A stretch of 64,000 nucleotides of DNA from Alkalinema sp. FACHB-956 (GTDB lineage Bacteria > Cyanobacteriota > Cyanobacteriia > Leptolyngbyales > Leptolyngbyaceae), in NCBI RefSeq assembly GCF_014697025.1, contig NZ_JACJRC010000013.1, positions 1 to 64,000 on the forward strand, read 5' to 3'. The notes under the pieces were generated by a model. The model was not told the DNA's origin. It was given only the letters and a program-made list of their open reading frames with translations, and did not search any database. Shown one piece after another: positions 1,065 to 55,466 of the stretch. A program made the position numbers and the translations under genes. The stretch's first letter is position 1. Every line of letters begins with the position of its first letter.

Positions 1065-2720
1065 TCACAAGTCTCTGCGCGAGAGAAGATAACACCAACC
1101 CAATGCACCTACCCCCTCCTCGTCGGCGTGTAAGTGAAGAGCACTCACATAAGCAGGTAATTCTCCGACGGGAGAATGAAGAGGATTTTTCTTGAGTTCG
1201 CTGTAGGACATGTATGATGTTGAATCTGCATTCTGCCATCCAACTTTAGCGCAAAAGTTATCCCACTCTTTCCCCATGCTCCTTGGGCTACCGCATTCAT
1301 GCCAGATTTTCTTCTGCATAGAAAATCCAAAATATCCCTTACTCGCATCCACCCAGAGTCGATCGATCATCAACAAATCTGCATAAGGAAACTTCTCTAA
1401 ATCTTCTAATTCCAGATATCTAAGCTTAGTCTGACCTGCAACTTCCAGCATGACTCGTAGAGTTTCCCGATCGGCCTCTTCCCACTTCCCTGCCTTCAAT
1501 AACTCACGCAACTTTTCATAGCTCACACCTTTTTCAGATTGCAGCGGAATTGTATCAATTGCGCTTACTGGCTCCGTGGCAGGCGTTGATGGCTCAGAAG
1601 GTTCCTGAACCTCCGGTGGTTTAGGTTTAGGCAACTCCTGAGACGACAACCGCTCGATCGTGCATTCCAAAATCTGCGCAGCATCCTCCTCAGTCAATGC
1701 TAATAAACTTCGATATTGCTCTAACCGTTTCTGTTCACGCTCTCCGAACGGATACCTATGTTGAACGGCTTTCTTTACTACTGCATAATATTTTGCTAAC
1801 TTAGATCTATATTCTCGAATTGGCTCTAAAACTTCATCTTCAATTTGTAGAGCAGTTACTATGTCTAACTTCAACTTAATCTGATATTCATCTAGGATTG
1901 GCCGACTAAAAATTTCATCAATTTCGCCCTCATCCTCCTGAACAATTCTTTCAACCTGTTTTCGGTATTGCACCAGCGGATCCCCCAGCGCCACCTTCGC
2001 AATCCGTAACTGATACCCTTCCCCCTTCGCAAAAATCTTAGGACTCATAGACGGAGCCTCTTCCTGCACCTTCCGACTCACGTACTGATGCAAGTGATCG
2101 ATCGTAATCTCATCGTTTTCTGCTGCCGCTGCTGCCCCCGTCCGCAACCCCTCCGTCAAATAATGGCCATAAACCGACAATTCCCCCCCATTCAATCGCT
2201 CAAAGGCATAATCCATTCCACTCGTCGAAGTCATCACCACCCGACCTTCCGCCCCGATCGCCGCCTCCACATCGATCGCGCCATCATCCATCGGCACCAA
2301 ATCCCCAAACGCCCCACTAAAGCAACAATTCAAAATCACAACTTGTCGCTTAGCTCGACTCGCTCCCATCCAACTGCTGACACTCTGCGCCGCGATCGCC
2401 GTCGTCGTGATCAACTTCTCCCCCACCTTCTGGGTATTCTTCATCGCAAAATGCAACCGACGATCGGCATCCTTCACCCCATGCCCCGCCAGAAATAGCA
2501 GCACAAAATCATCCTTAGCATGGCTCAAATACCACGTTTCGATCGTTGTCGCCAAGGTACTAGAATCCACATCCAAATGCATTTGCACATCATCAAAGCC
2601 ACCGATCTCTGGATTCTCCAACAACGCCTTCAACCCCTGCACATCATGGGGCGCAGACTTCAGCGGCTTAAATCCTTCTAGATACTGACCCGTCCCAATC
2701 AACAACGCCTTACGTGCCAT
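1065..2720 (-). CDS. Caspase-GUN4 fusion protein
   Basis: This is a 551-residue protein counted from the ATG at 2720. Upstream in-frame codons are read from the 2790-2841 repeat, and the MARKALLIG start matches the usual caspase beginning. Residues 1-250 form a C14 caspase (orthocaspase) domain with His80 in LFLAGHG and Cys133 in ILNCCFSG, so the dyad is intact. A helical, charged linker (about 255-395, DPLVQYRKQ...) of the kind common in cyanobacterial effector proteins follows. Residues about 398-551 are a GUN4-like domain (YEKLRELLKAGKWEEAD, then FPYADLLMIDRLW and YFGFSMQKKIW). GUN4 proper binds tetrapyrroles and activates Mg-chelatase; here it is probably a ligand or sensor domain, which is inference. 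The EACC1-like gene 159 bases upstream is probably the partner. Confidence 0.88.
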   Translation of the reverse strand: MARKALLIGTGQYLEGFKPLKSAPHDVQGLKALLENPEIGGFDDVQMHLDVDSSTLATTIETWYLSHAKDDFVLLFLAGHGVKDADRRLHFAMKNTQKVGEKLITTTAIAAQSVSSWMGASRAKRQVVILNCCFSGAFGDLVPMDDGAIDVEAAIGAEGRVVMTSTSGMDYAFERLNGGELSVYGHYLTEGLRTGAAAAAENDEITIDHLHQYVSRKVQEEAPSMSPKIFAKGEGYQLRIAKVALGDPLVQYRKQVERIVQEDEGEIDEIFSRPILDEYQIKLKLDIVTALQIEDEVLEPIREYRSKLAKYYAVVKKAVQHRYPFGEREQKRLEQYRSLLALTEEDAAQILECTIERLSSQELPKPKPPEVQEPSEPSTPATEPVSAIDTIPLQSEKGVSYEKLRELLKAGKWEEADRETLRVMLEVAGQTKLRYLELEDLEKFPYADLLMIDRLWVDASKGYFGFSMQKKIWHECGSPRSMGKEWDNFCAKVGWQNADSTSYMSYSELKKNPLHSPVGELPAYVSALHLHADEEGVGALGWCYLLSRRDL

Positions 2721-2789
2721 GACCTTACAAATAACAATTTCGATGAAGTCTCTATCAGTGTGGATCAGTTCCCTTTCTATACAGTTCAG

Positions 2790-2841
2790 TCCCCCCCTTC
2801 TTCTTGTTCCCCCTTTATTAAGGGGGGTTAGGGGGGATCCG
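2790..2841. repeat. G/C-tract dispersed repeat, copy 5 (shortened)
   Basis: A C-run, TTCTTCTTGTTCCCC, CTTTATTAAGG and GGGGTTAGGGGGGATCC lie between the EACC1-like gene and the caspase-GUN4 gene on the leftward transcript. It lacks the nested module and the CGCGCGATCG tail. The inverted C- and G-runs could form a hairpin inside the putative operon. Confidence 0.7.
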
Positions 2842-2879
2842 CCCACTTCGCAATCCACGCAATGATTCTGATTAACTTT

Positions 2880-3272
2880 CTATTTCGTTTGAATTAACTG
2901 CACCGTAAATGAATCCAGTTCTCTAATAGCCGCTATTTGTTGCTCTAGCTGTTCCTGCGTACGATATTCCAAATTAAATTCTCGATCGCCATTCTTATAA
3001 CTCAGCTTCAACACCGTATTCGGGCGCAAATTCCATAACCACTTCATCACCGCCAAAAGATTCGTCGCATTCACCTCCGCCTTCAAAATCCCTAACAAAA
3101 ACGCTGCTGCCCCAGACATCGCCCCTTCCGGCACATCCTCTTCCCGTGCCAGCCCAGCCTCCTCCGCCAAATCCTCCCGCAACTCTTCCGCCAGCCGCAG
3201 CGCATACGCTTCCATTTCTTCCGGTTCCAAATCCAAGCCAGCTTGATTCAAATCAATCAATACCTGCGCCAT
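2880..3272 (-). CDS. EACC1-like effector-associated protein
   Basis: About 130 residues from the ATG at 3272; an in-frame ATG also exists at 3302. I prefer 3272 because GGAG lies 9 bases upstream and a TATAAT at 3317-3312 is too close to 3302 to leave a leader. The protein has an acidic helical first half (LEPEEMEAYALRLAEELRE), a Gly/Ala-rich helix (MSGAAAFLLGILKAEV) and a C-terminal strand-rich segment ending LDSFTVQLIQTK. This layout matches, by my reading, the effector-associated constant component 1 family, small proteins repeatedly found next to caspase- or trypsin-like effectors in predicted conflict systems. The role is probably to recognise a trigger and engage the caspase encoded just downstream. 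Confidence 0.6.
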   Translation of the reverse strand: MAQVLIDLNQAGLDLEPEEMEAYALRLAEELREDLAEEAGLAREEDVPEGAMSGAAAFLLGILKAEVNATNLLAVMKWLWNLRPNTVLKLSYKNGDREFNLEYRTQEQLEQQIAAIRELDSFTVQLIQTK

Positions 3273-3311
3273 GCCAAAGCTCTCCAAGCCACTGCCTAAC
3301 ATTTTTGTCCG

Positions 3312-3317
3312 ATTATA
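3312..3317 (-). promoter_or_regulatory. Possible -10 box for the EACC1-caspase transcript
   Basis: A perfect TATAAT on the minus strand, 40 bases upstream of the preferred ATG. No convincing TTGACA is seen at the usual distance, so this is a weak call. The rightward CHASE2 cyclase gene starts at 3433, so the 3273-3432 interval would serve divergent transcription. Confidence 0.35.
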
Positions 3318-3432
3318 CTCTCACCTCCCCACTAATCCGGGAGACTTACCCCCACCCTCCTCTCCCCCTCCTTGCACAAACCGGATTCTCCCTGGGCATC
3401 TTGTAAAGAACAGTAAAACACCTTCAAACTCC

Positions 3433-5778
3433 ATGGGGAAATCACTACGCAAAGCAACCTGGCAATGGCGCGGCCTCCTACTCATCATCCCCGCCGTCAC
3501 CGCAAGCGTACTCGGACTACGCCTCTCCGGCAGACTCCAACCCCTAGAACTCATGTTCTACGACCAATTCATGCGCCTCCGCCCCGCCGAAACCCCCGAC
3601 CCCCGCATCCTCATCATCGGCATCACCGAAGCCGACCTCGCCCAAAAAGGCTGGCCCATCTCCGACTGCACCCTCGCCCGATCGCTCACCCAACTCAAAA
3701 CCCTCCAACCCACCGCGATCGGCCTCGACCTCTACCGCAACCTCCGCCAAAACTCCAGCCTTAGTAAATACCGCGACCCCTGCAAAGGCCAAGGCTACCA
3801 ACAACTCCAAAAACTCTTCGCCACCACCCCCAACCTCATCGGCATCGAAAAAGTCGGCAACGATCGCACCAGCGAACCCATCCCACCCCCCGAAACCCTC
3901 GCCAACCACAACCAAATCGCCGCCAACGACGTTCTCCTCGACCCCGACGGGCGCATCCGCCGTGGCCTCCTCTACCTCTACCCCGAAAACCGCGACGGCA
4001 TCGAAGGACTCGCCACCCGCCTCGCCACCCACTACCTCACCAGCCAAAACCTCACCCCCGACCCCAACGCCGAAATCCTCACCTTCAACACCCTCCCCCC
4101 CACCGTCTTCCCACCCCTCGAAGCCGACGACGGCAGCTACCAAAACATCGACGCCCAAGGCTACCAAATCCTAATTAACTATCGCGGCAAAGCCCAAAAC
4201 TTCGATCGCGCCTCCCTCACCGAACTGCTCAACGGCCAACTCACCCCCGATCGCGTCCAAGGCCGCATCGTCCTGATCGGAGCCGTCGCCTCCAGCCTCA
4301 ACGATAGCTTCATGACCCCTTACGACAGCGGCTTTGCCGAATCCGCCGTCAAAACCCCCGGTGTCGAAATCCACGCCCACCTCACCAGCCAACTCCTCAG
4401 CACCGTCCTCGATCGGCGATCGGGCATCCACTTCTGGCCCGACTGGCTAGAAACCCTCTGGATCATTGCCTGGATCAGCCTCGGCGCAATCCTCACCTGG
4501 TACTGGCGCTACACCAAACCCCGCCAAGCCCCCGTCCGCATTTTCGTGCTCGTCGGCCTCGGTTGCAGCCTTATCCTAGGAAGTTACTGGGCCTTTTGCC
4601 TCGGCTGGTGGGTGCCCGTCCTGCCCAGCGGCCTGGGCTACACCATCGCCATCCTCGTCATCACCAGCTACCTCGCCCGCCGCGCCGCCGACATCCGCAA
4701 AACCTTTGGCCGCTACCTCACCGACGAAGTCGTCACCCAACTCCTGGAAACCCCCGAAGGCTTGAAACTCGGCGGAGAACGGCGACAAATCACCCTGCTC
4801 ATGGCTGACCTGCGCGGCTTTTCCGCTGCCGCCGAACAGCAACCCCCCGAAAACGTCCTCGCCTTCCTGAACCGCTACCTGGAATGCATGACCGATGTCA
4901 TCACCCGCTACCAAGGCACGATCGATGAATTCATGGGCGACGGCATTTTAGTCATGTTTGGTGCCCCCACCCAGCGCCCCGACGATGCCGATCGGGCCAT
5001 TGCCTGTGCGATCGCCATGCAACAAGCGATCGCGCAAGTCAACCAATTCAGCCATCTCATCGGCCTCAATCAAGTGGAAATGGGCATCGGCATCACCACC
5101 GGCGAAGTCGTCGTCGGCAACATCGGCTCCGCCAAACGCGCCAAATACGGCGTCGTCGGCAGTCACATCAACCTGACCGCCCGCATCGAATCCCAAACCG
5201 TCGGCGGCCAAATCCTGATCTCCGAAGCCACCCGTGCCCTGGTTGTCCCCCAACTCAGCCTCGGCCAACAATTGCAGATCCACACCAAAGGCTTCTCCCA
5301 ACCCGTCACCCTCCACGAAGTCCTGGGCATTGGTGCCCCCTACCACCTGCAACTGGAAAATACCTTAGAACCCCCGATCGCCCTGCCCCAGCCGATCGCC
5401 GTGGAATACATGGTGCTGGATGGAAAAGCGATCGAAGAAACCGCCAGTTCTGCCGAAATCCTCGCCCTCTCTGACCACGAGATCGATCTTTACAGTGAGC
5501 GATCGCTGGAACCCTTACTAAACCTGAAGCTGAACCTACTGACCCCCGATCGCAGCGCCGACTTCTACGCCAAAGTCCAAGGCGCGATCGGCCCCCACAC
5601 CTATCGCCTGCGCTTGACCTTCCTGCCCCCCGCCGTCGAAACGCTGCTGACCGCCACACCCACCCGCCAGAGTTCCGCGCCTAATCCCGCAGATAGTCAA
5701 TCCACTGCTCCACCACCGAGGGCGAACCGTACCACAGCCCCGCACTCTTGGGCGCATGACGCACGCCCTCCAGCGTAA
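3433..5778 (+). CDS. CHASE2-domain adenylate/guanylate cyclase
   Basis: A membrane class III nucleotidyl cyclase of 781 residues from the ATG at 3433. A TM helix at about 12-31 is followed by an extracytoplasmic CHASE2 sensor (about 35-330), three closely spaced TM helices (about 338-358, 367-388, 392-415) and a catalytic domain from about 450. Metal-binding aspartates are visible: Asp459 in LLMADLRGF and Asp503 in FMGDGILVMFG. After the cyclase there is a PilZ-like or unassigned beta-rich segment (about 640-740). The product is probably cAMP made in response to an external signal. The last roughly 33 codons run into the convergent lipase gene and encode a Ser/Thr/Pro/Arg tail that looks non-native. 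Codons in the first 1.3 kb end almost always in C, unlike the neighbours. Confidence 0.9.
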   Translation: MGKSLRKATWQWRGLLLIIPAVTASVLGLRLSGRLQPLELMFYDQFMRLRPAETPDPRILIIGITEADLAQKGWPISDCTLARSLTQLKTLQPTAIGLDLYRNLRQNSSLSKYRDPCKGQGYQQLQKLFATTPNLIGIEKVGNDRTSEPIPPPETLANHNQIAANDVLLDPDGRIRRGLLYLYPENRDGIEGLATRLATHYLTSQNLTPDPNAEILTFNTLPPTVFPPLEADDGSYQNIDAQGYQILINYRGKAQNFDRASLTELLNGQLTPDRVQGRIVLIGAVASSLNDSFMTPYDSGFAESAVKTPGVEIHAHLTSQLLSTVLDRRSGIHFWPDWLETLWIIAWISLGAILTWYWRYTKPRQAPVRIFVLVGLGCSLILGSYWAFCLGWWVPVLPSGLGYTIAILVITSYLARRAADIRKTFGRYLTDEVVTQLLETPEGLKLGGERRQITLLMADLRGFSAAAEQQPPENVLAFLNRYLECMTDVITRYQGTIDEFMGDGILVMFGAPTQRPDDADRAIACAIAMQQAIAQVNQFSHLIGLNQVEMGIGITTGEVVVGNIGSAKRAKYGVVGSHINLTARIESQTVGGQILISEATRALVVPQLSLGQQLQIHTKGFSQPVTLHEVLGIGAPYHLQLENTLEPPIALPQPIAVEYMVLDGKAIEETASSAEILALSDHEIDLYSERSLEPLLNLKLNLLTPDRSADFYAKVQGAIGPHTYRLRLTFLPPAVETLLTATPTRQSSAPNPADSQSTAPPPRANRTTAPHSWAHDARPPA

Positions 5779-6385
5779 TATTCTCCGCTCCCGCCAAGTG
5801 CGCCGACTCCACCGGCGTAATGCCATCCCCCCAACAATCTCCCCGCCCGCAGGTCAGCTCATAGCTGCTGTAGGCCAGCCATTGCCCCAACCGTTTCTCG
5901 CCATAAACCGATCGACCCGCCACACAGACATAGCGCACCGTCGGTTCAAAGGCTCCGGGATAGCTGGTATTAACAAAGTCCAAATTCTTACGAGTCCAGC
6001 GCTCCTGGCTGGTGTGGGGCGTTCCCAAGGTAATCAGGCGATGCACCCATTGGTGGGCCTGCCAGCACTGCACCGATCCCGCTGGCTCCGGGTGAATGTC
6101 GTAAGCCTTGGCCCCGAGGTAAATCCGAGCGATCCAGCCTCCCGCTGAATGGCCTACCAGATTGACTTCCGCCGTATTAAACCGCTGGCGCACGTCCTGC
6201 ACCGTCCGATCGATCTGGTCAATAATGGGGCGAATCGATCGTCCCCCCAGCGTCGGAACCCAGTCCCATTTCGTTAACGGCACCGTCACCGTGGGAATAC
6301 TAAATTGGCTGAGAAGTTGCTCAAATGCTTGGTATTCCGTCGCAGGTGCGAAATATCCTGGCACAATAACGGTGGGTAGCATCAT
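5681..6385 (-). CDS. Alpha/beta-hydrolase (lipase/esterase-like)
   Basis: A 234-residue protein with the VIVPGYF oxyanion-hole region near the N-terminus and a nucleophile elbow GHSAGG with Ser80. The acid and base residues are likely in the VESAHLAG and VRHAP region near the C-terminus. It resembles cyanobacterial and plant lipase-like proteins with a short lid. The substrate is not predictable, and no signal peptide is seen. Its 3' end overlaps the 3' end of the convergent cyclase gene by 98 bases. The C-terminus VVEQWIDYLRD looks natural, so the overlap was probably created by the cyclase gene losing its stop. Confidence 0.8.
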   Translation of the reverse strand: MMLPTVIVPGYFAPATEYQAFEQLLSQFSIPTVTVPLTKWDWVPTLGGRSIRPIIDQIDRTVQDVRQRFNTAEVNLVGHSAGGWIARIYLGAKAYDIHPEPAGSVQCWQAHQWVHRLITLGTPHTSQERWTRKNLDFVNTSYPGAFEPTVRYVCVAGRSVYGEKRLGQWLAYSSYELTCGRGDCWGDGITPVESAHLAGAENITLEGVRHAPKSAGLWYGSPSVVEQWIDYLRD

Positions 6386-16350: not shown

Positions 16351-17952
16351 ATGCAAATAGACGATGAAAGTCGGAAACAATTAGCAAAATTTTGGCGCAG
16401 AAAACTGTGGTTAGGAATAGCCGTGATCGGAACGTTAGGCATTGCGGCTTGGCGAATCAGTTCAGTACAGGCCCGTTATGATGATGTCTTAGTCCAAGAA
16501 AGTCGCAATTTGCCAGACAAAGTTTACCAGGAGTTGATTCAGGAAATTAGGCAAGGAATTCCCAATCAGCCAATTTTTTGGGAAACGGATGATTTCAAAA
16601 AAAATCAAACTTGTAGCAGCATTAACCTACTGGGTTCCCTTGGCGATCGCCGTGCAATTCCTGAACTCAAAAAACTGATGGAAGATGAAATGAACCATGT
16701 GAGGAATTGTGGTGGTAATATCCTCGATAAAAGTATTTATCTAGCAGCCGCTTTAGCATTAAGTAACTTTGAGGATGAAAATACATTCTCCTATTTGAAG
16801 CAATCATTAGCCAGCCTTCCCTCATCACGAATACTTAATTTACAAAGAGAGTTTCATCGGAGAGAACGTCTAATTCTCAAACAGCCAACTTTTAATTGGA
16901 ATGACAAACAAAATGTAGCGCTTCTGAAAAGTCCCTTCCCAAGGTTTCTGGAGCCGTCAGAGCATGACACGATTAATCAGAAAATAATTCGATCGCTACA
17001 ATTTCCAGGCGTAGTCGATGAAAATCGAGCACAGAAATATCAACAATTAGAATCAAAAGCCTTGACGAAGCAACAAAAAGAGCAGTTGGTAGAAGAGTTA
17101 TTCATCAGCAATTTTGTACAGTTGCTGTTTCAACATCAGCAAAATAATCTTCTCGATATAGCTGCACAATATGGTAGCAAGGGTAATTTAAAAGCATTTG
17201 AGACATTGCTGTCCTTACTCCCGAAATCAACTCAAACGTTAACTCCATTTGAGAAAAGCACTAGACAATCTATCCTAAATAGGATGTTGGGACTCTCTGC
17301 TATTCCTCAATTTAGGCCATCAATTCTAAAATTTCTTAGATCTCAAAACTTTCAAGATAATGATTTTGCCAACCTTTACTGTGTAGCTCTTGCCGCTGAC
17401 CAAACAGGCCAAATCGCAAGTGAATTACTATTAAAACGAGTCAATTCTGGAAAACTTCCAGAATTTAATGACGGGATGAAATCGTGTAAAGGTGATTTTC
17501 CAGTCAATGTTTTGGTGAATCAACTAACTCCATTACTCAGCGATCGGAATTCTAATATCAGAAATAGTGCAGCCTCTGCATTAGGGTTTATTGGTGATCC
17601 CAGTGCAATTCCAGCAGTACTTCAGGCATTCAAAAAGCTCCCACGTTATTCCTTCAAGGATGCACCTTTAGAGAATACTTTAGATCCAGACTTATTTGTT
17701 GATGGAAAATCTTATAAACTATTTTTGAAGGTGCTACGAGAATTAGGCTATAGTGCAACCCTTGCAGATACTTGGAATGACCAAGAAAAACAGGATGCGA
17801 TCGTCGTTCTTAAAAAAGCATTAGACCAACCCGATTCGCCGCGCACCAACATAGACAATTCTCGTGCATATATTGGTTACTGTCGGTTGGCATCTGCGTT
17901 AGCTGACCTTGGTATTTCAGACTATTTAGAATCAATGTTTTGCAAAAGCTAA
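16351..17952 (+). CDS. HEAT-repeat membrane protein, N-terminal part
   Basis: 533 residues with a short basic N-terminus, one TM helix (about 18-35, LWLGIAVIGTLGIAAW) and helical HEAT/Armadillo-like repeats; the clearest is LLSDRNSNIRNSAASALGFIGDPSAIP. Codon use is more A+T rich than the genes before it. The frame closes at TAA 17950-17952 just after LESMFCKS. From 17930 onward the +1 frame is open and continues as AKAKDYAAHLKLEI straight into the next entry, so this looks like the front part of one gene with a one-base insertion in TTTT (17938-17941). The role is probably as a membrane-anchored scaffold. Confidence 0.8.
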   Translation: MQIDDESRKQLAKFWRRKLWLGIAVIGTLGIAAWRISSVQARYDDVLVQESRNLPDKVYQELIQEIRQGIPNQPIFWETDDFKKNQTCSSINLLGSLGDRRAIPELKKLMEDEMNHVRNCGGNILDKSIYLAAALALSNFEDENTFSYLKQSLASLPSSRILNLQREFHRRERLILKQPTFNWNDKQNVALLKSPFPRFLEPSEHDTINQKIIRSLQFPGVVDENRAQKYQQLESKALTKQQKEQLVEELFISNFVQLLFQHQQNNLLDIAAQYGSKGNLKAFETLLSLLPKSTQTLTPFEKSTRQSILNRMLGLSAIPQFRPSILKFLRSQNFQDNDFANLYCVALAADQTGQIASELLLKRVNSGKLPEFNDGMKSCKGDFPVNVLVNQLTPLLSDRNSNIRNSAASALGFIGDPSAIPAVLQAFKKLPRYSFKDAPLENTLDPDLFVDGKSYKLFLKVLRELGYSATLADTWNDQEKQDAIVVLKKALDQPDSPRTNIDNSRAYIGYCRLASALADLGISDYLESMFCKS

Positions 17953-17986
17953 GGATTATGCCGCTCATCTCAAACTGGAGATATCC

Positions 17987-19165
17987 TTGCCATCTGTATA
18001 TACAATGTTCCATCCAGGATATAAAATTAGTCAACTAGACTTGGTTTTTAAGAGCTTCCTCGATTCAAGTGACCATAGTGTGTATATATTAAATTTATTA
18101 CGAACCTACGCTCTTCAAAATCCAGATGTTGAAGTTAGACGAGCATCACTTTTTGCTTGGATAGGACAAGGTAATCTTCCTAAAATCTATACTAGTCATT
18201 TAATCAAAGCCCTCAAAGACCCTGATGAATTTGTTCGCTCAATGGCAGCATTTTATCTGAGTAACGATCTGAATACCAGTGGTGGTAGTGATCTTGAAAT
18301 CGAGCAGGCCTTGACAGATGCCCTCAATGACGAAAATAAATACGTCAAGCTACATGCTCATAAAGGATTATTGAAAAAGATTAGCTATCAAAAATCCTAT
18401 GCTTTAAAGCTACTTGAAAAATCACAGAAATCACAAATTAAAGTTTCATCCGACGACCTGGAAATTATCGCAACTCTTATTTCAAAGGATGAACTACAAG
18501 ATTCTCGAATTGCTCCACTGATAATTTCACAGTTGAGATCCCTGAATGTTGCCAAAGATATTCCTGTAGAAGATTGGTACCAAAGTAGTTTACGTGAACT
18601 ACCAGGAGGTCTTGCTAGAAGAAGCACTCCTCCTACTGCTGATGACAATGCCAGTATCAAATTCAACGCAGTGGGAATACTCAAGCGTTTAGCCGATCGT
18701 AATCTTCTTACAGACACCGATCGTCAGGCTTTGTTACCCATTGTGATGTCTATTAACAAGCAGTACGAGAGCTATGTAGGTCGTATTCAAATTGTCAAAT
18801 TGATTCGCCAAATCAATCAATCTGCCACTTCAGATCCAATCGCTCAACAACGCACCCAATGGTTCTTTTACATCGAAGCCGGATTGTTGGGTCTTGTGGG
18901 TTTGACGAGCCTCAGCCTCCTCTTGATCAATCTCCGTTTGCGCAATCCTTTCCCCTTCTTTTGGTCAGGCTATCTGATTTTTCCAGAAGAAGTCATAGCG
19001 GAATTGATCGCACTCGTTCAACGTCGCCACGCTGAAAAGGTTCCTCAATGGCGAATCAGACTCGAAATTATCTATGAAGTTCTCCTACTGCTTTGGGCTT
19101 TTCAGATTGTTATCCGAATTGACAATATCAAACTGCCTCCAGGAGGAAATCGATCGGCTAAGTGA
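17987..19165 (+). CDS. HEAT-repeat membrane protein, C-terminal part
   Basis: 392 residues from a doubtful TTG. The same frame is open back to 17930, and the peptide before the TTG (AKAKDYAAHLKLEISL) looks coding, so the true start is probably the ATG at 16351 after correcting one base. More HEAT repeats (PDVEVRRASLFAWIGQG, KDPDEFVRSMAAFYLSNDL, NDENKYVKLHAHKGLLKK) are followed by two TM helices (about residues 294-322 and 359-378) and a conserved-looking cytosolic segment between them. The joined protein would be about 940 residues with helices at both ends of a large HEAT domain. Confidence 0.75.
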   Translation: MPSVYTMFHPGYKISQLDLVFKSFLDSSDHSVYILNLLRTYALQNPDVEVRRASLFAWIGQGNLPKIYTSHLIKALKDPDEFVRSMAAFYLSNDLNTSGGSDLEIEQALTDALNDENKYVKLHAHKGLLKKISYQKSYALKLLEKSQKSQIKVSSDDLEIIATLISKDELQDSRIAPLIISQLRSLNVAKDIPVEDWYQSSLRELPGGLARRSTPPTADDNASIKFNAVGILKRLADRNLLTDTDRQALLPIVMSINKQYESYVGRIQIVKLIRQINQSATSDPIAQQRTQWFFYIEAGLLGLVGLTSLSLLLINLRLRNPFPFFWSGYLIFPEEVIAELIALVQRRHAEKVPQWRIRLEIIYEVLLLLWAFQIVIRIDNIKLPPGGNRSAK

Positions 19166-50398: not shown

Positions 50399-51196
50399 CT
50401 AGGGCGTGGTCATGGCTTGCATCACAGCCGCTTGACCCACTTGGGCATAGAGGTCTTTGAGATGGGCTAGGAGGGCTTGGCGCTGTTCCGTAGAGATTTG
50501 ATCTTGGGGAAAAGGAATTTCCCCCAGGATATCTAGCAAGGTTTCGCCACTACTCGGCGCAATGACGACTAGAGAAGGATCCAATTGCTCGGTGTAATGC
50601 CAAAACTGTGCGATCGACCAGGGTTCGGCGGCGGGTTCGGGGGTGGGCGTGGGGGAGGATTCAGTTTGGCGGCGTTGGCGGAGGGCTTCTAGGATGCTAT
50701 CTTTGGTGCGACCTCGCAGTTGAAACAGCACGAAGGGATCTTCGCTAAAGCGATCGCCCAGGAGATAGTACACCGCACCGATATGTTTGCAGGGATTCAC
50801 CGGGTCGGGGCAGTTGCAATGGCTATGGATATCAAACTTGCTGAAGGGGAAGAGGCTAAGGCCGTTACTGATAAACACTTCTTCGATATTTTGGGGCATT
50901 TCGCCCGCCAGCAGCTTAGCGGAAAAGATGGCCCGATCGGCCATGGAATCGATGACAAATTCCCACTGCTCATCCGTGAAGGGATCCAGTTTTAGCTTGA
51001 CTTGATAGGGGTCTGGGGCAGTACCACGCACTTGGGCGGTGACGTTGGAGCCTTGGAAGTCGAGGTTAAGGACATGGCCTTCGCGCACATAGGTGCGGGC
51101 GCGGGCAAGCCGTTGCCGAAACCCAAAGGATTCCAACACATCGATCCAGCGTTGGGCCCACCATTCTCGACTGGGAAGGGTTTCATCGTGGAGCAT
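50399..51196 (-). CDS. SWIM zinc-finger protein
   Basis: A 265-residue protein with a SWIM zinc-binding motif CxCx(n)CxH: Cys127, Cys129, Cys136 and His138 (HCNCPDPVNPCKH). The N-terminal part (EWWAQRWIDVLESFGF, then ARTYVREGHV) is typical of the bacterial SWIM protein that is often linked to SNF2-type helicases, but no helicase is nearby here. The C-terminal part is Pro-rich and then helical. It may bind DNA or protein. Confidence 0.85.
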   Translation of the reverse strand: MLHDETLPSREWWAQRWIDVLESFGFRQRLARARTYVREGHVLNLDFQGSNVTAQVRGTAPDPYQVKLKLDPFTDEQWEFVIDSMADRAIFSAKLLAGEMPQNIEEVFISNGLSLFPFSKFDIHSHCNCPDPVNPCKHIGAVYYLLGDRFSEDPFVLFQLRGRTKDSILEALRQRRQTESSPTPTPEPAAEPWSIAQFWHYTEQLDPSLVVIAPSSGETLLDILGEIPFPQDQISTEQRQALLAHLKDLYAQVGQAAVMQAMTTP

Positions 51197-51439: not shown

Positions 51440-51475
51440 GTACAATATGCATCCCTACTACTATATGCATTCCTA
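51440..51475. repeat. 18-bp duplication across the TOPRIM gene stop codon
   Basis: GTACAATATGCATCCCTA (51440-51457) and CTACTATATGCATTCCTA (51458-51475), about 14 of 18 identical. The second copy holds the stop (TAG on minus, 51475-51473), and the first repeats that TAG 18 bases downstream, in frame. Confidence 0.72.
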
Positions 51476-52114
51476 CAGGCCATAGAGTGTCTTAAACCAA
51501 CCAACAAAATCCTGGGTTTGAGGATGTTGAGGATCCAAAATTCGCCTTTGCAGTGCAGTATGTAATTGCTGACCTGGCTCATCTTGCCATGCCAACCAAG
51601 TATGAATATTCGCCTTATCCTGCTGAAGTGTTTTAAAAGGAGCACCCTGGACTTTAGCTTCCGTAACAGCAGATTGGGCATATTGCCAAACGGGATCAGT
51701 AGACTCTATGCAGTTTGATAAAAAAGTTTCTATCATGCCACGCAATTGATTATCCGGCATCATCCACACGCCAAATTGAATACCTGTTTGCGTTGTGTGA
51801 ATTAATCCTTGTGATGGAAGCGTTTTTGGCATGTCTGCAATACTTTTTGCGCAAGCCGCCTGCAAACTTTGCCATCGTGCAGCAGGATTTTCATCTGCAT
51901 CCACCACAATCCCTATTACCTGAAGCCCACTCGCTTGAAGCCTCGTCGCAATTCGCTTTGCATCAATTAATCGATCGTATCCCCCAACTTCTTCAATATG
52001 AATCGGTGGATTGCGTAATGGCCAAGGGATATGATTGGCTTCCGCAAGTTCAGCAATTACAAAAACATCTTGCTTCCCTTCAACAAACAGTATTTTCGGA
52101 TGTTGATTAGCCAT
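51473..52114 (-). CDS. TOPRIM/DUF3226-like putative nuclease
   Basis: A 213-residue protein with the TOPRIM metal-binding layout: Glu12 in FVEGKQD and Asp72-x-Asp74 in VVDADENP, with IEEVGGYDRLI between. It fits DUF3226, related to the TOPRIM part of OLD-family nucleases. It begins 3 bases after the stop of the AAA ATPase gene upstream on the same strand, so the two are translationally coupled and probably work as a complex. By analogy with OLD, Gabija and PARIS-type pairs it could cut nucleic acid once the ATPase signals; this is inference. The stop codon is in an 18-bp duplication. Confidence 0.8.
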   Translation of the reverse strand: MANQHPKILFVEGKQDVFVIAELAEANHIPWPLRNPPIHIEEVGGYDRLIDAKRIATRLQASGLQVIGIVVDADENPAARWQSLQAACAKSIADMPKTLPSQGLIHTTQTGIQFGVWMMPDNQLRGMIETFLSNCIESTDPVWQYAQSAVTEAKVQGAPFKTLQQDKANIHTWLAWQDEPGQQLHTALQRRILDPQHPQTQDFVGWFKTLYGL

Positions 52115-52117
52115 TCC

Positions 52118-53215
52118 CTAACGAACCTCAATCCCTTCTTCCACCGCGATCGCCATTTGTTGCGAATCAAATGTTACCGAAGATGACTTCGCTTTTTCAA
52201 TGCGGTGAATCATGATTTCATTCTCTCCAGCCATTTCCGATTCCGCCATTTCCGCCAGACTCTCCCAACAATCTCGGCTATGGGTGGTTGCAAACACTTG
52301 CACATTAAGTTTTTGTGCCGTTTTCCAGATCATCTTCCACATATCTAACATGGCTGTGAAATGCAGCCCTGTATCAATCTCATCCACTAATAGAATGCCA
52401 CCTTTAGTACACACAACACTTAGCGCCAAACCCAACATGCGCCAGATGCCATCACCCATACTACCGATCGGAAGAGGTTGCTGCTCATCGCGTCGCTTAA
52501 TAACGAAACCTCCACGTTTTGCAGAAACCATACGATCAATCCCCAAGGAGGCAATTCTCTCAATTTTGGGATCAATAGTTTGCAGCGCTTGAACAATATT
52601 ATCTTCTTCAGGTGTGAGAACAACTTGGTCGAAAAGCTCAATCATTTGAGGAATCAGCAATGAAGATGAAGTAATAAACTGCACCTTAATAGATGAACTT
52701 TTTATAGGCTTAATTCGCATCCTTCTGGAGTAGTCTGAGCGAATTCCTCCATCAGCAGATAACGGAATCTTAAGTTCTTCTCTGTCTCCATTGAAAGACC
52801 AGGTCAAAACCAGTTCTACATCACGAGTCAGTTCTTCATCAACCAGATCAACCAAAAGAGTTTCTTGCTTGAATTCATGAATTTCAATTTTTGCAACTAA
52901 TTCTTCAGCAGATCCATCTGTCATCACCGAAATTGTAAAAGATTGATCTAGTACTAACTCATGCCCATGAAATAAATGTCTAATATCTAGTTCTCGACTA
53001 CCACTTCGTTCTTCTGTGCGAGAAACCTCACCTCTTTCTACCATCGTTTGTGTGACAGAGGCTAAATTAGCTCGTGATTGTAAAAGTTGAATTGCTTCTA
53101 AGATTGAGGTTTTACCACTATTATTTTCGCCGACCAACAAGTTAATTCGTCCAAGCTGTGTCAGCTCGAATGATTTAAAGCTTCGGAAATTCTCGACTTT
53201 AAGCGATTTGAGCAT
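52118..53215 (-). CDS. AAA15/OLD-like ATPase
   Basis: 365 residues from the ATG at 53215 (MLKSLKVENFRSF), the usual beginning of SMC/RecF-like AAA ATPases; 24 extra codons upstream look non-native. Walker A is GENNSGKTS (29-37), and the ABC-type signature/Walker B region GGILLVDEIDTGLHF lies at about 268-282 with a following D-loop and His in ATTHSRDCWE. The insert between them (about 80-230) is unique-looking and may sense the trigger. It forms a two-gene unit with the downstream TOPRIM protein. Composition is more A+T rich than in neighbouring genes, which would fit horizontal gain. Confidence 0.85.
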   Translation of the reverse strand: MLKSLKVENFRSFKSFELTQLGRINLLVGENNSGKTSILEAIQLLQSRANLASVTQTMVERGEVSRTEERSGSRELDIRHLFHGHELVLDQSFTISVMTDGSAEELVAKIEIHEFKQETLLVDLVDEELTRDVELVLTWSFNGDREELKIPLSADGGIRSDYSRRMRIKPIKSSSIKVQFITSSSLLIPQMIELFDQVVLTPEEDNIVQALQTIDPKIERIASLGIDRMVSAKRGGFVIKRRDEQQPLPIGSMGDGIWRMLGLALSVVCTKGGILLVDEIDTGLHFTAMLDMWKMIWKTAQKLNVQVFATTHSRDCWESLAEMAESEMAGENEIMIHRIEKAKSSSVTFDSQQMAIAVEEGIEVR

Positions 53216-53287
53216 TGGCTCCCGACCTAAATAGCACCTTCGTTTTGGTGAGTTCGCTAACAACATCTTGATTGTAGCAATGCCCAT

Positions 53288-53330
53288 ACAAAAAGCACGA
53301 TCGAGTTCTTTTGGGATCTCGATCGTGCTT
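53288..53330 (-). terminator. Terminator between groEL and the AAA gene
   Basis: A perfect 13-bp stem AAGCACGATCGAG / CTCGATCGTGCTT (53293-53305 and 53318-53330) with a 12-base loop. On the minus strand it is followed by TTTTTG. On that strand groEL ends at 53382, so this stops the groESL transcript and insulates the AAA gene. Confidence 0.88.
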
Positions 53331-53381
53331 CATAATTCAGCCTAAAACGTTAAACAACGCTTTCAGACTCGTGACTTGGAA

Positions 53382-55019
<1,638 letters not shown>

Positions 55020-55154: not shown

Positions 55155-55466
55155 CTACTGCACAACGGCCAGGATGTCACGCTCAGTCAACAGAACGTAG
55201 TCGTCGCCACCCAGCTTGATGTCGGTGCCAGCGTACTTGGAGTACAGGACTTTGTCGCCCACTTTGACTTCCAGTTCTTGGCGAGAACCGTCATCATTGC
55301 GCTTACCGGGGCCAACTTGCACGACTTCACCGACTTGAGGCTTTTCCTTAGCGTTGTCGGGCAGGATGATGCCGCCAGCAGTCTTCTCTTCTGCTTCCGA
55401 CACCTTCACAAAAACGCGATCGCCTAAGGGTTGAACAGTAGACACGCTCAAAGATACGGCTGCCAT
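55155..55466 (-). CDS. groS: Co-chaperonin GroES
   Basis: A 103-residue HSP10 that caps the GroEL ring. The mobile loop [23 protein letters not shown] and the beta-barrel [10 protein letters not shown] and [12 protein letters not shown] are seen. It is the first gene of groES-groEL, controlled by the CIRCE site 217 bases upstream. Confidence 0.97.

Follow-up and report, generated by a model that had tools for sequence, protein, structure and literature searches.

The window analysed here is a stretch of 64,000 nucleotides from the cyanobacterium Alkalinema sp. FACHB-956. Behind groES and groEL, and on the same strand, it encodes an SMC/OLD-type ABC ATPase followed by a DUF3226 TOPRIM protein (Table 1). 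The ATPase gene runs from the ATG at 53215 to the stop codon at 52118-52120 on the minus strand. A longer, mechanically called reading frame begins at 53287, right against the groEL terminator, and lacks support from homologues; we therefore regard ATG 53215 as the right start. An earlier reading of this DNA, made from the letters alone and referred to below as the sequence-only reading, had placed both open reading frames here on one and the same strand, with the correct start codon and only 3 nt between the ATPase stop (52118) and the TOPRIM start (52114). It had also described the genes as lower in G+C than their neighbors, and our figures bear this out (38 to 46% for the ATPase and 44% for the TOPRIM gene, versus 55% in groEL and in the SWIM-like gene). 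Elsewhere in the window, G+C falls to 38 to 40% at positions 16500 to 18800, compared to ~50% across most of its length, marking a possible further foreign stretch; positions 3000 to 6000 are likewise unusual in composition, with G+C near 60% and strong GC skew (down to -0.47).

Table 1. Positions and properties of the ATPase-TOPRIM pair, its sequence elements, and its neighbors (window coordinates, except for the last row)
Feature	Position	Strand	Remark
SMC/OLD-type ABC ATPase gene, 365 aa	52118..53215	-	PADLOC PDC-M38A-like; proposed sensor and regulator
DUF3226 TOPRIM gene, 213 aa	51473..52114	-	PADLOC PDC-M38B-like; proposed nuclease effector
Walker A GENNSGKT, ATPase aa 29-36	53108..53131	-	G29, G34, and K35 kept in 105/105 pairs
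ATPase segment V, aa 50-240	52496..53068	-	Seen in relatives, placed on the window by alignment; proposed trigger-sensing domain
ATPase C-terminal tail Glu-Val-Arg, aa 363-365	52121..52129	-	R365 in 105/105 pairs; proposed TOPRIM contact
GAGGT in tail codons (internal Shine-Dalgarno)	52125..52129	-	10 nt ahead of the TOPRIM ATG
groESL intrinsic terminator	53292..53331	-	Follows groEL, precedes the pair; stretch at -28.3 kcal/mol (z -5.2), then U-run
groEL	53382..55016	-	Same-strand upstream neighbor; synteny anchor
groES	55155..55466	-	
SWIM-like gene	50399..51196	-	Downstream; adjoins the triose-phosphate isomerase gene; outside the system
XisH (PF08814), usually with XisI (PF08869), directly behind groEL	L253, L254, L255, L257, L259		Genus of G006; pair absent there

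Sequence motifs, folds, and the shared gene boundary

Both proteins carry intact catalytic motifs. Besides Walker A, the ATPase has a signature-like SMGDG (aa 252 to 256), a Walker B motif ILLVDEID that includes D278 and E279, and an H-loop histidine, H312, while the active-site set of the TOPRIM protein consists of E12 and D72-A-D74. In Pfam, the ATPase matched AAA_15 (2e-28) and AAA_21 (3e-19); the TOPRIM gene matched DUF3226 (1.4e-69), and OLD-like_TOPRIM at 0.006, a value below that family's cut-off. We compared 105 nonidentical ATPase-TOPRIM pairs and found that G254, D278, and D72 were, like the Walker A residues, present in 105/105, followed closely by E12 and H312 (104/105), E279 (103/105), and D74 (100/105). 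The Walker A motif and the TOPRIM Glu/Asp-x-Asp set, both already recognized in the sequence-only reading, are thus intact and nearly invariant. The ATPase gene adjoins the DUF3226 gene in nearly all loci of relatives, usually 2 to 3 nt upstream of it, and given this adjacency together with the near invariance of the catalytic residues, the pairing is not due to chance.

The predicted TOPRIM structure (pLDDT 90.5) resembles PH0156 of Pyrococcus (2p62, Z 13.6) and the OLD TOPRIM domains (6nk8, Z 10.5; 6p74, Z 10.2), with weaker matches to retron Eco2 (Z 8.7) and AriB (Z 7.4). For the ATPase model (pLDDT 82.6), SMC and Rad50 heads, PtuA, GajA, and AriA all matched about equally, at Z scores of 17 to 19, and the fold alone therefore cannot decide between a repair and a defense function.

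The boundary between the two genes is itself constrained. At 82/82 loci the ATPase ends in Glu-Val/Ile/Thr-Arg, and the invariant Arg365 is encoded by six different codons, which implies that the protein sequence is what is conserved at this position. The tail Glu, on the other hand, is encoded by GAG at 81/82 loci, although GAG makes up 30% of the Glu codons elsewhere in these genes. In the window, this GAG and the GT that follows form a GAGGT sequence ahead of the TOPRIM start, so that one short stretch both encodes the protein tail and provides the ribosome-binding site. With the Arg codon varied and the Glu codon nearly fixed, constraints on protein and on RNA both act on the tail, and a mere codon effect is ruled out as the origin of the Glu-Val-Arg ending. 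Because its ribosome-binding site lies within the codons of the last ATPase residues, the TOPRIM protein would be made in step with the ATPase. The Glu-Val-Arg tail was absent from ATPases encoded beside RloB, DUF4276, or DUF4435 proteins, the DUF4435 cases being from the same phylum. In divergent DUF3226 subfamilies (L027, L029, L028, L032, and similar loci), the ATPase tails are EVRW or VRGE-like.

Block exchange within the ATPase gene

Among close relatives, one segment of the ATPase between Walker A and the ABC signature, which we call V (aa ~50 to 245), is swapped as a single block. At the DNA level, identity falls from 91 to 97% outside the block to 44 to 59% within it, and the remainder of both genes is conserved. 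For example, G006 and G029, two genomes of the genus g7, share 98% identity in GroEL and 76% in the TOPRIM protein but only 46% in the ATPase, owing to a drop to 4 to 28% over aa ~60 to 180. The same profile was seen in DNA alignments from Microcystis, Pseudanabaena, and Dolichospermum: identity was ~90% or more at the gene start, mostly 31 to 60% at roughly nt 150 to 750, and about 90 to 99% from the end of V to the end of the TOPRIM gene. When we considered the 62 locus combinations, drawn from the 105 pairs, whose constant parts were at least 85% identical, V identity ranged from the twenties to the nineties and lay below 50% in 32 of them. In the 24 combinations in which V fell below 60% DNA identity, the mean was 53% in V versus 91% outside. 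Nine of 11 clusters, which are not strictly independent events, held two to five V types, and several V types persisted in most clusters at other thresholds.

The edges of the exchanged block recur at similar places. The left breakpoint lay at aa 42 to 59 in most cases and the right one at 244 to 250 in about half, that is, just after the Walker A helix and just ahead of the signature motif; these positions come from a method that assumes a single block of low identity, and the combinations L055/L058, L037/L038, and L042/L054 fit shorter or weaker blocks. Mosaic loci whose parents can be recognized were also found. L262 is 98% identical to L088 in V and 54% in TOPRIM, and to L058 it is 88% identical in TOPRIM and 33% in V, while L091 shares 97% of V with L080 and 97% of TOPRIM with L095. 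As a control, we made the same comparison, across those genome pairs, for RecF, which is a related ABC ATPase. The mean difference between core and V identity was 8.5 points for RecF versus 40.6 points for the ATPase of the pair; in the Microcystis-like genomes G149 and G286, for instance, V was 99% identical in RecF and 22% in the pair's ATPase. The blocks seen at the DNA level, the mosaics, and the RecF control together rule out fast evolution as the sole source of V divergence, and since several carriers are isolates, chimeric assembly of metagenome-derived genomes does not explain it either. We conclude that V is exchanged as a block between relatives.

A different pattern was found at the C terminus, where aa 341 to 365 track the TOPRIM allele rather than the rest of the ATPase. 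When two loci resemble each other in V but differ in TOPRIM, the identity of the last 25 ATPase residues drops with that of TOPRIM (88 to 64%, 88 to 56%, and 100 to 32%). This covariation may mean that the tail touches its partner, although linkage of adjacent DNA suffices to explain it. In Microcystis, L069 and L078 differ by a second exchanged block that spans the gene boundary (ATPase aa 341 to 365 and TOPRIM aa ~21 to 60), and both flanks of this block are near-identical DNA.

Genomic setting and distribution

The groES-groEL-ATPase-TOPRIM order is common to four genomes from three genera, including G006 and G029 of one genus and G018 of another, even though the ATPases share only 46 to 59% identity and the TOPRIM proteins 50 to 76%. 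Four of the five carriers in the family have the pair behind groEL. Counterparts of the groESL terminator hairpin are present in relatives, and with this intrinsic terminator standing between groEL and the pair, the latter is probably transcribed from a promoter of its own. In the genus of G006, two species have the pair in the slot behind this terminator, four others have XisH-XisI there, and one more has XisH alone; murG lies farther downstream in G006, G033, G061, and G059. The groEL 3' site is therefore a slot for alternative two-gene units within a single genus. This empty-site comparison was made in genus g7, as no second genome of the window's own genus turned up and the region 3' of groEL is not the same from genus to genus; its variability throughout the family suggests an exchange hotspot. 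Stable positions occur elsewhere as well, behind metH in Pseudanabaena and behind alaS in part of the Nostocales. At the Pseudanabaena loci L045, L048, L071, and L073, the pair begins ~20 nt after metH on the same strand, in an operon-like arrangement with methionine synthase.

The pair is patchily distributed. It is present in 4 of the 34 other genomes of the family and in three of eight genomes of one genus, where one of the three copies is divergent, and DUF3226 as a whole occurs in 59 of 292 cyanobacterial genomes. Several of these genomes have two to five DUF3226 matches. The sequence-only reading had held that conservation throughout the lineage and homology to a housekeeping ATPase pair would speak against its defense interpretation; this is not what we found. 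Among the matches listed were homologues from other phyla, and small mobilizable plasmids and five viral contigs carried homologues as well. A tblastn search of 50,697 phage records returned no homologue, and a search of 5,426 Escherichia coli genomes with two homologues taken from plasmids gave no match. On the Acinetobacter plasmid pAHTJR2 (L035), the ATPase gene next to DUF3226 (2014-3175) is annotated in two pieces and is possibly broken, and a BrnT-BrnA toxin-antitoxin pair comes after it.

The gene tree largely follows cyanobacterial groups, with one planctomycete metagenome-assembled genome (L040) nested within them through either transfer or mis-binning. A PADLOC scan of 139 neighbors of the pair and 139 genes from arbitrary places gave no clear defense-island signal; the excess was modest and came mostly from PDC-S03 (8 versus none listed). 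Uma2 genes are abundant near the pair (10 neighbors), and these are possibly the PDC-S03 matches. The sequence-only reading had taken the low G+C and isolated position to fit a mobile defense cassette. A recently inserted cassette of this kind must be given up on the basis of synteny and trees: groEL synteny extends across three genera, the tree follows lineage, stable positions recur, and neighbors show no clear defense-island signal. Taken together, synteny, slot alternatives, tree, and patchiness describe a pair that is old, loss-prone, and locally exchanged rather than a recent mobile island.

Proposed function and relation to known systems

Patchiness, the alternative occupants of the groEL slot, and exchange of the putative sensor segment point to a role in conflict; the sequence-only reading had suggested that the pair may be an antiphage or plasmid-limiting system. 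We favor, with moderate confidence, an interpretation in which the pair is a two-gene immune sensor-effector module, a split OLD or PARIS-like system whose V segment senses, whose ATPase holds the TOPRIM nuclease, and whose trigger releases it. In PARIS, the nuclease AriB, a TOPRIM protein, is held by the ATPase AriA and set free by a phage protein (PMC12409363; PMC11455837). By analogy, we propose the roles of V as sensor, of the tail as hold, and of TOPRIM as nuclease. The SMC-like ATPase would be both sensor and keeper, with a constant ATP-binding core and C-terminal part, and V would be an exchangeable domain that recognizes a trigger from a phage or mobile element. The conserved C-terminal tail of the ATPase would probably be what holds the TOPRIM protein. 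Binding of the trigger would change the state of the ATPase and release or activate TOPRIM as a metal-dependent nuclease, which may cleave DNA or tRNA and stop infection, probably by abortive infection. The stable chromosomal places of the cyanobacterial pairs, the fact that these mostly follow lineage, the lack of an evident enrichment in defense islands, and the negative search of the phage records count against an immune role.

Recognition of a trigger would account for the exchange of V, and so would evasion of inhibitors or a nonimmune form of self-recognition. The pair could be immune but respond to a general trigger, such as the depletion of nucleotides or the DNA ends that have been proposed for Gabija, with V varying as a target of phage inhibitors or through recognition of partner or self proteins. 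Exchange alone does not tell which ligand V has, the GajA and OLD folds are close, and nucleotide sensing is reported for GajA (PMC8136825). We nevertheless consider a general trigger unlikely, given that replacement of a whole domain with clustered edges exceeds what point escape from inhibitors needs, and that PARIS, likewise composed of an ATPase and a TOPRIM protein, senses specific phage proteins by its ATPase (PMC12409363).

Two further explanations dispense with phage sensing. The ATPase might restrain a toxic TOPRIM protein in a toxin-antitoxin-like or anti-plasmid module whose main task is to bar plasmids or the uptake of DNA, not phages; tight translational coupling of two genes, carriers among small plasmids, and a groEL slot shared with XisH-XisI would all suit such a module. 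Antitoxins usually do not have a swappable ATPase segment, however, and we consider this account improbable. It is very unlikely that the pair maintains or repairs the chromosome in the manner of RecF, Mre11-Rad50, or the archaeal OLD-type Cran1, and sits beside housekeeping genes for reasons of expression. Such a role would agree with the SMC/Rad50-like head, the stable positions behind groEL, metH, or alaS, and the largely vertical tree, and one OLD-family ATPase is known to act in the cell cycle (PMC12796447). Some 80% of cyanobacterial genomes nonetheless lack the pair, species of the same genus among them, it occurs on small plasmids, and its V exchange goes far beyond that of RecF in the same genomes.

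Among bacterial immune systems, split ATPase-TOPRIM pairs form a class that keeps growing. Exchange of V is what a sensor engaged in an arms race would be expected to show. Some natural alleles, such as L091/L095 of Dolichospermum and L074/L078 of Microcystis, differ from each other in little but V and are ready-made chimeras that separate sensor from effector without engineering and point to residues worth testing. The family is present in about a fifth of cyanobacterial genomes, including the bloom formers Microcystis, Dolichospermum, and Aphanizomenon, whose phage defense is ecologically relevant. No mention of DUF3226 or PDC-M38 was found in the open-access papers that we searched, and the exchangeable segment V, the dual-use tail, and the presence of alternative units in the groEL slot appear to be new, none of them having been found described in those papers.

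Profile comparison, which the sequence-only reading had named as a check, placed the pair with PDC-M38. The best PADLOC profiles were PDC-M38A for the ATPase (1e-88, residues 1 to 365 on profile positions 1 to 383) and PDC-M38B for the TOPRIM protein (8e-68); AbiLi (1e-51, full length) and AriA (7e-29) came well behind for the ATPase. Both window proteins match PDC-M38 over their full length and are adjacent in the same gene order, and by these matches the pair corresponds to the catalogued system, which PADLOC itself grades as a "candidate" without a mechanism. No NCBIfam model scored over its cut-off for the pair, and a PDB sequence search gave only weak relatives, all of the ATPase.

The likeness to OLD, PARIS, and Gabija put forward in the sequence-only reading stands as regards a split ATPase and TOPRIM with OLD/PARIS-like logic, given the PADLOC pair and the OLD-like TOPRIM fold; membership in PARIS or Gabija does not, since partner family and architecture rule out either label. 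Like PARIS, the window pair encodes an ABC ATPase and a TOPRIM protein as separate genes with similar ATPase folds (Z 17 to 18), and it may share the logic of a sensor and a held nuclease. AriB, however, is a DUF4435 protein, whereas the window TOPRIM belongs to DUF3226 and matches the AriB fold only weakly; Pfam gave no DUF4435 match in the TOPRIM gene, and none was found in the whole genome. The ATPase's fold match to AriA (Z 17.8) is similar to that with many ABC heads. With the class 1 and class 2 OLD proteins, the latter including GajA, the pair shares an ABC ATPase (Z 17.9 to GajA) and an OLD-like TOPRIM (Z 10 to 10.5), and a TOPRIM of this fold with its Glu and DxD residues (Z 10.2 to 10.5 to 6p74 and 6nk8) is the fold-level mark of the OLD superfamily. 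OLD proteins are single polypeptides, whereas the window system is made of two genes. Gabija includes a UvrD-like helicase, GajB, and class 3 OLD systems (retrons) include a reverse transcriptase and an ncRNA, but the neighbors of the window pair are groEL and the SWIM-like gene, with neither a helicase nor a reverse transcriptase next door. AbiL resembles the pair in that AbiLi is the second-best PADLOC profile of the ATPase, and differs in that the partner is a DUF3226 protein with no AbiLii match in PADLOC. RloB and DUF4276 gave no match in the whole genome. The pair is therefore a split OLD-like module that is, by partner family, neither PARIS, Gabija, nor AbiL.

Exchange of a recognition segment as a block between constant parts is also seen in the specificity subunits of type I restriction systems (HsdS) and in shuffled recognition modules of a similar kind. 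In the window family, the exchanged block sits inside an ABC ATPase, from Walker A to the signature. We speculate, and hold the idea to be evenly poised between right and wrong, that DUF3226-linked ATPases form a widespread family of innate immune receptors in which the whole Walker A-to-signature stretch serves as a plug-in domain for recognition, and that homologous recombination at conserved ATPase motifs shuffles this domain between species. The tail and TOPRIM would then make up a second exchangeable unit, the effector, and specificity and effector could be freely combined as in restriction specificity subunits.
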